From assembly GCF_024170465.1 (NCBI RefSeq), contig NZ_JALJYF010000001.1:124001-188000 (forward strand): DNA of 64,000 nucleotides, read 5' to 3'. The stretch comes from Natronospira proteinivora (GTDB lineage: Bacteria; Pseudomonadota; Gammaproteobacteria; Natronospirales; Natronospiraceae). Under the pieces are notes generated by a model. The model worked only from the letters and a program-made list of their open reading frames with translations. It ran no database searches and was not told where the DNA came from. Below, piece after piece: positions 18,373 through 20,931 of this stretch (positions are counted from its first letter, which is position 1; every line of letters begins with the position of its first letter). The position numbers and the translations under genes were made by a program.

Positions 18373-19365
18373 ATGAGCACTTGGTACGATCAGGATCTGG
18401 ACCGGAGTCCCTTGGCGGATTGCGCCATTGCCGTCTTCGGTTACGGGGCCCAGGGCCGGGCCCAGGCCCGCAATCTTCTTGATGCCGGCTTCAATGTCCG
18501 CGTGGCCCTGAGAGCCGACTCCTCAAGCCGTGAACGGGCCGAAGCCGATGGTCTCTCGGTGCTGTCGCTGGAAGCGGCCGCTGAGTGGGCGGATATGGCG
18601 GTGATGCTGGTGCCGGACGGCGAGCAGCCGGCCCTGTACCAATCGGTGCTGGCGCCAGCCCTGAAACCCGGGGCGGCGCTGATCTTCGCCCATGGCTACG
18701 CCGTCCACCACGGTCATATCCGGGCCCGGGAGGACCTGGATGTGCTGATGGTGGCCCCGCTGGGCATTGGCGAGCAGGTCCGGGCCACGTTCGAGAAGGG
18801 GGCCGGGGTGCCGGCCCTGGTGGCGGTGGCTCAGGACGGCAGTGGGCAGGCCTGGTCTCGCGTCCTGGCCTATGCCGGTGCCGGTGGCCATGGTCGTGCC
18901 GGGGTGATTGAAACCACCTTTGCCGAGGAAACCGAAACCGATCTCTTCGCCGAGCAGGCGGTGCTGGTGGGGGGCATGAGCGAGTTGATCCGCAATGCCT
19001 TTGAAACACTGGTGGAAGCGGGTTACAGCGAGGAAGTGGCCTATTTCTGCTGCCTGCATGAGGTCAAGCTGATCGCCGATCTCATCCATACCCGCGGGAT
19101 TGCGAGTATGCGGGAATCCATCTCCGAGGTTGCGGATTACGGCGCCATGCGTCAGGGCCCCCGGATTATCGGCGAGGCTTCCCGTCAGGCCATGCGCCAG
19201 GCCTTGCAAGAGATCCGCAGTGGCGAGTTTGATCGCCGCTTGCAGGAGGAACAGGGTGCGGGCTTTACTATTTTGAATGAAAGCCGTGTCGCAGCCCGTT
19301 CCCATCCCATCGAAACCGTTGGTCGTCGTTTGCGCGCCAACATGCCCTGGATGAAGGAAAAATAG
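18373..19365 (+). CDS. Ketol-acid reductoisomerase (IlvC) family protein with altered active site
   Basis: A full-length (330 residues) class I KARI homologue: a Rossmann domain with GYGAQG (23-28) and an NADPH-type LRADSSS loop, then the knotted helical domain. Its numbering runs collinear with class I KARIs, so catalytic positions can be read directly. H107, D190, E194, E230 and S251 are kept. Position 130, normally Lys in APKGPGH, is Leu (APLGIGE), and metal ligand Glu226 in AYFECLHE is Cys (AYFCCLHE). Standard isomeroreductase activity therefore looks unlikely (inference). ilvI and ilvH, the usual upstream partners, are absent. The gene is one base from the PSD-like gene. Routine annotation would probably call it ilvC. 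Confidence 0.85.
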   Translation: MSTWYDQDLDRSPLADCAIAVFGYGAQGRAQARNLLDAGFNVRVALRADSSSRERAEADGLSVLSLEAAAEWADMAVMLVPDGEQPALYQSVLAPALKPGAALIFAHGYAVHHGHIRAREDLDVLMVAPLGIGEQVRATFEKGAGVPALVAVAQDGSGQAWSRVLAYAGAGGHGRAGVIETTFAEETETDLFAEQAVLVGGMSELIRNAFETLVEAGYSEEVAYFCCLHEVKLIADLIHTRGIASMRESISEVADYGAMRQGPRIIGEASRQAMRQALQEIRSGEFDRRLQEEQGAGFTILNESRVAARSHPIETVGRRLRANMPWMKEK

Positions 19366-19366
19366 C

Positions 19367-19984
19367 ATGGCGCGTAATGGTTCTCTGATTGCCGGCGAGG
19401 CCTGGTGGCCCATTGCCTTTTTGCTGCTGATGTCCGGCCTGGCCTTGTTGTTGCCTTTTCCCTGGATTGCCTTGCTGGGCCTGTTGCTGACGGTATTCCT
19501 CATCTTTATTTTCCGTGATCCGGCCCGGGATATTCCTGCCCTTCCCTTGGCTGTCGTTAGCCCGGTGGATGGCGTAATTGAGGTTATTGAACAGCCAAAA
19601 GCCCCCGAAGGGGAGCCCCAGGATACGGTGATCGTGATTCGTATTGCCCCCTTGGCTGCCTGGTCCATCCGAGCCCCTGTGGAAGGCAAGGTCATGGGCC
19701 TGCGAGGGTTGAAGGAGGGTCCGACGCGCGGTCTTTGGCTGCAGACCGATGAAGGTGATGATGTAGTCACGGAATTGACGGGGCGATCGCGTCCTTACTG
19801 GTCTCGACCAGTGGCCTTCGTACGCACTGGGGAGCGCTTGGGGCAGGGGTGGCGTTTTGGCTATCGTCGCCTGGCCCGTGAAGCCCGTGTCCATGTTTAT
19901 GGAAAGCTTAAGCTGGAAGTCAAGGCAGGACAGCGGGTAAGGGCGGGCAGTGACTTGCTGGCAACCCTGGTTCACGATGACTGA
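19367..19984 (+). CDS. Phosphatidylserine decarboxylase-like protein lacking the pyruvoyl serine
   Basis: A 205-residue homologue of the short (PSD-A, archaetidylserine decarboxylase-like) decarboxylases: two N-terminal membrane helices (about 14-30 and 34-49), FRDP at 49-52 and SPVDG at 65-69 with the triad Asp. The segment that should read like CHVNRAP is AAWSIRAP, so the triad His is lost. The self-processing site FGS is FGY (Y166). Without Ser the pyruvoyl group cannot form by the known mechanism. The frame is intact, starts one base after the KARI-like stop with AAGGA upstream, and precedes pssA. It may be a structural or regulatory partner in phospholipid synthesis (inference), with an active PSD elsewhere. 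Confidence 0.8.
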   Translation: MARNGSLIAGEAWWPIAFLLLMSGLALLLPFPWIALLGLLLTVFLIFIFRDPARDIPALPLAVVSPVDGVIEVIEQPKAPEGEPQDTVIVIRIAPLAAWSIRAPVEGKVMGLRGLKEGPTRGLWLQTDEGDDVVTELTGRSRPYWSRPVAFVRTGERLGQGWRFGYRRLAREARVHVYGKLKLEVKAGQRVRAGSDLLATLVHDD

Positions 19985-20106: not shown

Positions 20107-20931
20107 GTGGCGGCCAAGAAACGGAAACAGCGTGAGCAAGGCAGTGCCCGCTCCATTCGGCGCGGCATCTATCTGCTGCCCAATCTGTTCACCACGGCGG
20201 CCATGTTTGCCGGCTTCTTTGCCATGATCTCGGCCATGGATGGCCGATTCCAGGCGGCCGGAGTGGCGGTGTTGGTGGCCTTTTTGCTGGATGGGGTGGA
20301 TGGTCGGGTGGCACGGCTGACCGGTACCGAAAGTGAATTCGGCCGGGAATATGACAGCCTGTCCGATCTGGTCTCCTTTGGTCTGGCACCGGCCATGATT
20401 GTCTATAACTGGGGCCTGGGTGTGCTGGGGGACGAGCCCTGGTGGTGGTGGATACAGATTTCCTGGCTGGTGGCCTTCTTTTTTGCCGTAGCCGCGGCTC
20501 TGCGCCTGGCCCGCTTCAACACCCGCGCCGGCAGCAGCGATAAGCGTTTCTTCCAGGGCCTGCCCAGTCCGTCGGCCGCTGCCTGCGTGGCGGTGGGGGC
20601 CTGGCTTCTGGCGAGTCTGGACCTTCAGAATGCTGTGATGTTGCCCTTCGTCTACGGCATGACCGTGGCGGTGGCGGCCCTGATGGTCAGCAATATCAGC
20701 TATTACAGTTTCAAGGACCTCAATCTGGCCGGCGGCCGGGTACCGTTTACCTATGTAATTGCCATTCCTGTGTTATTCATCCTGATTGCCCTGGCGCCCT
20801 CCAAGGTGCTGTTCGCAGGCTTTTTCCTATATGCCCTGTCCGGACCTGTTCTGTCCCTCTGGCGGCGCCGCAGGCGAGCTTTGAAGTTTGCCAATAAGGA
20901 GCGTGAAGGAGGAGGTGATCACGGTGGGTAA
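20107..20931 (+). CDS. pssA: CDP-diacylglycerol--serine O-phosphatidyltransferase
   Basis: Makes phosphatidylserine from CDP-diacylglycerol and serine, the first step toward phosphatidylethanolamine. I chose the GTG at 20107 with GAGGA upstream, giving 274 residues that open with a basic segment (AAKKRKQRE) and then the first helix; an earlier in-frame ATG at 20029 adds residues unlike the family. The CDP-alcohol motif is complete: DGVDGRVAR then GREYDSLSD, near residues 60-87. About eight membrane helices, with a basic C-terminus. It is 122 bp behind the PSD-like gene, the standard order psd-pssA. Confidence 0.93.
   Translation: MAAKKRKQREQGSARSIRRGIYLLPNLFTTAAMFAGFFAMISAMDGRFQAAGVAVLVAFLLDGVDGRVARLTGTESEFGREYDSLSDLVSFGLAPAMIVYNWGLGVLGDEPWWWWIQISWLVAFFFAVAAALRLARFNTRAGSSDKRFFQGLPSPSAAACVAVGAWLLASLDLQNAVMLPFVYGMTVAVAALMVSNISYYSFKDLNLAGGRVPFTYVIAIPVLFILIALAPSKVLFAGFFLYALSGPVLSLWRRRRRALKFANKEREGGGDHGG
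20909..20920 (+). promoter_or_regulatory. Near-perfect Shine-Dalgarno deciding the UDG start
   Basis: GGAGGTGATC at 20911-20920, preceded by AAGGA, is complementary to almost the whole 3' end of 16S rRNA. It lies inside the last codons of pssA and points to the GTG at 20924 (8 nt spacing from GGAGG), not the GTG at 20915, which is embedded in it. Confidence 0.75.

Follow-up and report, generated by a model that had tools for sequence, protein, structure and literature searches.

A short-type phosphatidylserine decarboxylase homologue with one ancient origin in Gammaproteobacteria and without the residues of the known chemistry

Phosphatidylserine decarboxylase (Psd) makes the membrane lipid phosphatidylethanolamine (PE). 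What does a Psd homologue do when it lacks the residues with which Psd enzymes cleave themselves and decarboxylate? The question is raised by a gene of Natronospira proteinivora that lies in the window analyzed here, a stretch of 64,000 nucleotides. Positions 19367 to 19984 hold a single unbroken frame of 205 amino acids on the plus strand, the strand to which all window coordinates below refer, and we call its product and the apparently non-catalytic family to which it belongs PSDL. It is near certain that PSDL is a Psd homologue unable to use the known chemistry and that the family arose once, in the distant past, and has long been retained. Upstream is ilvC, which encodes ketol-acid reductoisomerase (18373 to 19365), and a single base separates its stop codon from the start of the PSDL gene. 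Downstream is pssA, which encodes a type II CDP-diacylglycerol-serine O-phosphatidyltransferase (20107 to 20931; TIGR00473, 110.8 bits against a cut-off of 107). The gap to pssA is about 44 bp if the first possible start, 20029, is used and about 122 bp to the start at 20107, which is the more likely of the two. A sequence-only reading of this DNA had described an uninterrupted frame in a tight operon with pssA. The frame is indeed intact and the gene does lie upstream of pssA, but the close junction is the one with ilvC.

Homology without the catalytic residues

The window protein scored 33.5 bits against PF02666 (gathering cut-off, 22) and is therefore a member of the Psd homology superfamily, and all 25 PSDL members tested matched the same family at an E value of ≤0.001. 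Scores against PRK05305 and TIGR00164, the models of short-type Psd, were 33 to 71 bits where the NCBIfam cut-offs are 183 to 377, and the window protein reached none of the NCBIfam cut-offs, those of the two equivalogs included (best, 71.4 bits versus 262). A PDB sequence search with the single PSDL protein as the query gave no useful match. The Pfam model would call PSDL a decarboxylase, and pathway reconstructions would therefore miscount Psd. We note that three genomes outside the class and within the same phylum have a good short Psd together with a second, weaker Psd-like match, possibly from another divergent paralogue family (G311:C11:67498-68217, G339:C69:23810-24478, and G369:C35:14848-15504).

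The catalytic triad of Escherichia coli Psd is D90/D142-H144-S254 (PMC7952604), and the corresponding positions were mapped by aligning the window protein with catalytic short Psds. A170-R171 (19874 to 19879) aligns with the Gly-Ser pair at which catalytic Psds cleave themselves, W99 (19661 to 19663) takes the place of the triad His (E. coli His144), and A97 takes that of Asp142. D68 (19568 to 19570) is the retained Asp at the E. coli Asp90 position and is found in 90% of PSDLs. The sequence-only reading correctly reported that the pyruvoyl-forming Ser and the triad His are missing and that FRDP and SPVDG remain, but it misplaced the lost Ser. It had read FGS as changed to FGY, with Y166 in place of the Ser; Y166 aligns to the RFGF(I) stretch ahead of the cleavage pair; the true Ser site is R171. 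Across the family, Gly-Ser occurs in just 8 of 88 members, and the His occurs in 2, never alongside Gly-Ser. The His position is instead Tyr, Phe, or Trp in 76 of the 88, and the Ser site is unconstrained, being Gly, Arg, or Ala.

PSDL might still decarboxylate phosphatidylserine (PS) by way of an unconventional site. Asp68 and the SPVDG/FRDP framework are retained, eight members have Gly-Ser without the His, and E. coli His mutants were eventually cleaved to a degree (PMC7952604). The Ser position is unconstrained, however, and is R171 in the window protein, and the genome encodes a complete long-type Psd besides. Moreover, the Gly-Ser pairs that the window protein does have, G5-S6 and G194-S195, are distant from the aligned cleavage site, and no alternative pair aligns with the active center. 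We consider continued decarboxylation highly improbable and infer that PSDL has lost the activity.

Single origin, gene order, and the long-type Psd

Homologues were present in 28 of 95 relatives, and a survey of the class, in which 276 genomes were searched with a profile of the family, gave matches in 99 genomes. Two of these (G042 and G067) were read as fragment matches to long Psds and left out, and the other 97 comprised 82 PSDLs and 15 catalytic short forms. The survey plus the earlier matches provided 103 homologues, which were extracted and aligned; 15 had both the His and Gly-Ser, and the 88 that did not are the PSDLs. Their genomes represent 50 family groups and 65 genus groups of Gammaproteobacteria, and no family held both PSDL and the catalytic short form. 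Searches of the open literature for a Psd pseudoenzyme or a non-catalytic homologue found nothing relevant, most subscription journals being outside their coverage.

Trees were built with the catalytic columns masked and with 30 alphaproteobacterial short Psds added, all of which have the His plus the Ser. The PSDLs formed one clade of their own (SH-aLRT, 100), outside the catalytic short Psds. With long-branch rows removed, a careful tree supported the clade at 100/100, and 200 of 200 bootstrap trees recovered it. Because all PSDLs fall in one clade, the trees point to a catalytic loss that was single and old, and several independent losses are ruled out. The loss first seen in the window protein, for which like forms in related genomes had been suggested as a check, is common to 88 orthologues and so exceeds what chance would give.

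PSDL shares its place in the genome with the true short psd. The order ilvC-PSDL-pssA was found in 80 of 88 PSDL genomes, and catalytic short psd was flanked by ilvC and pssA in 10 of 15 genomes, some of the exceptions to this flanking being contig ends. In one genome (G044), a catalytic short Psd occupies the identical position. Because both genes occupy the slot between ilvC and pssA, PSDL is the in-place descendant of the short psd. We envision an ancestral short-type Psd encoded in the ilvC-psd-pssA slot of a gammaproteobacterial lineage that also carried a long (LGST-type) Psd. With the long Psd present, the short copy would have been freed from catalysis, and the residues for self-cleavage and decarboxylation would have been lost from it in a single event. 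Separately, the IlvC proteins of the Natronospira order (18373 to 19365 in the window; L033 to L037 and L053) have mean distances of 0.67 to 0.78 to other gammaproteobacteria, versus about 0.38. As these distances are outliers, they suggest that ilvC was replaced or transferred in that order, with the gene order nonetheless kept.

The long-type Psd accompanies PSDL. The sequence-only reading had advised a search for a second, active psd, and elsewhere in the Natronospira genome there is a gene for a complete long-type Psd of 287 amino acids with intact HxxHMP and MGST motifs (G000:C1:1157192; 215 bits). A long Psd, scored as a strong second PF02666 match, was found in 78 of 82 surveyed PSDL genomes versus 0 of 15 catalytic-short genomes, in which the single match was taken as the short Psd itself. 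Fisher's test gave a P value of 2.5e-14, which is indicative only because the genomes are related and the value overstates their independence. Of the long Psds drawn from PSDL genomes, all 53 had an intact GST cleavage motif, and 51 had HxxHxP. The four PSDL genomes in which no long Psd was found (G104, G198, G219, and G240; L161, L129, L135, and L137) are drafts in 150 to 410 contigs, and relatives of three of the four do have a long Psd. Because these assemblies are drafts, the missing genes are probably assembly gaps. A true absence would bear on how PE is made in those cells.

New conserved residues and predicted fold

PSDLs have conserved residues of their own. When the 88 PSDLs were compared with 45 catalytic short Psds, E106 (19682 to 19684), D128 and E129 in D128-E129-G130-D131 (19748 to 19759), and R157 in R157-L158-G159-Q160 (19835 to 19846) were found in 100% of PSDLs, despite pairwise identities of roughly 35 to 40%, and all four positions vary in catalytic short Psds. 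Nearly as constant in PSDLs, and likewise variable in the enzymes, are D131 (95%), G159 (98%), Q160 (92%), L61 (92%), and H203 (19973 to 19975), which is present in 89% and belongs to a C-terminal LVH motif. Among Natronospira relatives, dN/dS was 0.13 to 0.37 for PSDL, 0.15 to 0.27 for PssA, and 0.12 to 0.19 for IlvC; synonymous sites were close to saturated in these comparisons. PSDL is under purifying selection. It also evolves the fastest of the three proteins, with a mean distance of 1.24 compared to 0.65 for PssA and 0.38 for IlvC.

The lost catalytic residues and the fast evolution relative to PssA and IlvC are what one would expect of a decaying relic. A relic, however, would hardly be retained in 50 families after a single loss, with intact frames, purifying selection, and new invariant residues, and we reject decay, the probability of which is negligible, on the strength of the conservation, the frames, and the dN/dS values. 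The earlier preference for a new function over a dead gene is thus supported, and the single ancient origin and the separate long Psd add to that support.

An AlphaFold2 model of PSDL (67 sequences; mean pLDDT, 90.9; pTM, 0.86) and the hydrophobic sequence predict a membrane hairpin with helices at residues 10 to 26 and 32 to 48 (19394 to 19510). According to the model and to Foldseek, residues 62 to 201 (19550 to 19969) would form a beta domain with a fold of the duplicated-hybrid-motif type. The best solved matches in Foldseek were to EIIA-Glc (E value, 4e-5 to 1.4e-4; target-normalized TM score, 0.59 to 0.67), followed by LytM/M23, and a profile search weakly matched EIIA-Glc (E value, 0.02) and E. 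coli Psd (E value, about 0.5). The EIIA-Glc proteins of the PTS (1gpr and 1f3g) and the LytM/M23 domains have the fold type in common with the PSDL beta domain at about 15% identity, but they do not have the membrane hairpin. One of 25 PSDLs matched the EIIA model TIGR00830 (E value, 3e-4). We rejected an EIIA-like phosphocarrier because the two active-site His positions of EIIA-Glc are R121 and E136 in PSDL, and the likeness is therefore one of fold and not of function. An M23/LytM peptidase was likewise rejected, as the window protein has two His residues only, no HxH, and none of the HxxxD/HxH zinc ligands. We envision that the hairpin and beta domain of the ancestor were kept, that an aromatic residue filled the His position, and that a new polar constellation of E106, D128, E129, D131, R157, Q160, and H203 became fixed. 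The protein would most likely reside at the cytoplasmic face of the inner membrane.

Perhaps the new constellation is itself a working site. To judge from the sequences, it is possible, if on the unlikely side, that the invariant set forms a new active or ligand site and that PSDL is a lipid-acting enzyme or a dedicated lipid sensor on a dead Psd scaffold. Were the new active site real, the scaffold of a pyruvoyl enzyme would have acquired a new function. As for PSDL being a new enzyme outright, with the seven residues serving as a catalytic or metal site for PS or another lipid, four polar residues that are invariant in 88 of 88 members and variable in catalytic Psds show the kind of conservation seen in active sites, and aromatics occupy the old site. 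Nevertheless, invariant acidic and basic residues in turns may be structural or may form an interface, and no known active-site motif matches, those of EIIA-Glc and M23 included. We think a new enzyme decidedly unlikely.

Partners and comparison with known systems

We favor a membrane-attached, non-catalytic accessory of PS and PE synthesis as the likely role, with PssA as the most probable partner, followed by the long Psd. In its full form, the proposal is that PSDL is a pseudoenzyme derived from a short-type Psd that serves PS/PE synthesis by binding PssA and/or PS, and here we judge the arguments for and against to be about evenly balanced. We hypothesize that such binding, to PssA and/or to its product PS, would set PS output or pass PS to the long Psd. 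Pairwise distances of PSDL and PssA were correlated when IlvC and the long Psd were held constant (partial r, 0.46 to 0.49), and the corresponding correlation of PSDL was 0.21 with the long Psd and about 0 with IlvC. The excess for PssA over the long Psd was nonsignificant, with a bootstrap interval that includes 0, and joint transfer of adjacent genes could be the source of the correlation with PssA. In a large part of the Gammaproteobacteria, and from early in the history of the class, one step of central membrane-lipid synthesis seems to have involved a dedicated protein without catalytic activity. If PSDL controls the output or hand-over of PS, the PS-PE balance of bacteria with type II PssA becomes testable.

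Type II PssA was matched in 271 of the 276 genomes of the class, 247 of them above the cut-off, and genomes without PSDL were included. Because the enzyme is near universal and is also found where PSDL is not, PSDL is not an obligatory partner of PssA. Moreover, in Woeseiaceae and their kin, PSDL lies between proS and udg-rimI-prfC with neither ilvC nor pssA at the locus, and PssA is divergent and encoded elsewhere in the genome, which further weakens an obligate partnership. Loci of this kind that keep PSDL include L172, L243, and others of the Woeseiaceae type in the range L170 to L246. A long Psd was present in all eight genomes checked, which were mainly of the Woeseiaceae type.

Retention in Woeseiaceae raises the alternative that PSDL stands alone as a membrane sensor or scaffold for PS, PE, or an anionic lipid and that its gene order is inherited history. 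A predicted membrane hairpin joined to a former lipid-binding domain would suit a sensor, as would the many genomes in which both enzymes occur without PSDL. Inherited history does not readily account for the order ilvC-PSDL-pssA persisting in 80 of the 88 genomes, which span 50 families, however, or for PSDL and PssA distances that covary. We regard a stand-alone sensor as unlikely.

Alternatively, PSDL could assist the long Psd allosterically or in its maturation, by analogy with the prozyme of Trypanosoma brucei (PMC5201418), a precedent that concerns a pyruvoyl enzyme. An intact long Psd nearly always co-occurs with PSDL, even in Woeseiaceae without an adjacent pssA, and the E. coli enzyme assembles as a dimer of heterodimers (PMC7952604). 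Most members of the class carry a long Psd without PSDL, however, and thus the long Psd needs no PSDL in general. The two genes are far apart in the Natronospira genome, the distance correlation is below that with PssA, and the short and long types are distant enough that heterodimerization is not a given. A partnership with the long Psd is fairly unlikely.

The closest relative of PSDL is the short-type Psd/archaetidylserine decarboxylase of alphaproteobacteria and some gammaproteobacteria (PRK05305 and TIGR00164), to which it is homologous over its full length. The two have in common the layout of hairpin plus beta domain, the ilvC-psd-pssA slot, FRDP, SPVDG, and the Asp. PSDL differs in the loss of the cleavage Ser, the triad His, and Asn101, in its new invariant residues, and in forming a clade of its own. 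The long-type Psd (LGST type, as in E. coli) belongs with PSDL to the PF02666 superfamily but keeps the GST motif and mostly HxxHxP, and PSDL is without both. In T. brucei, the pyruvoyl enzyme AdoMetDC is activated by the prozyme, its own dead paralogue (PMC5201418). In both cases, an active pyruvoyl-dependent decarboxylase is accompanied by a dead homologue, an arrangement found for PSDL in the Natronospira genome itself and in 78 of the 82 surveyed genomes. The fold family of the prozyme is unrelated to that of PSDL, and activation of a partner is proven for the prozyme alone. The prozyme may be taken as the nearest precedent for a mode of action, and as a precedent rather than as evidence.
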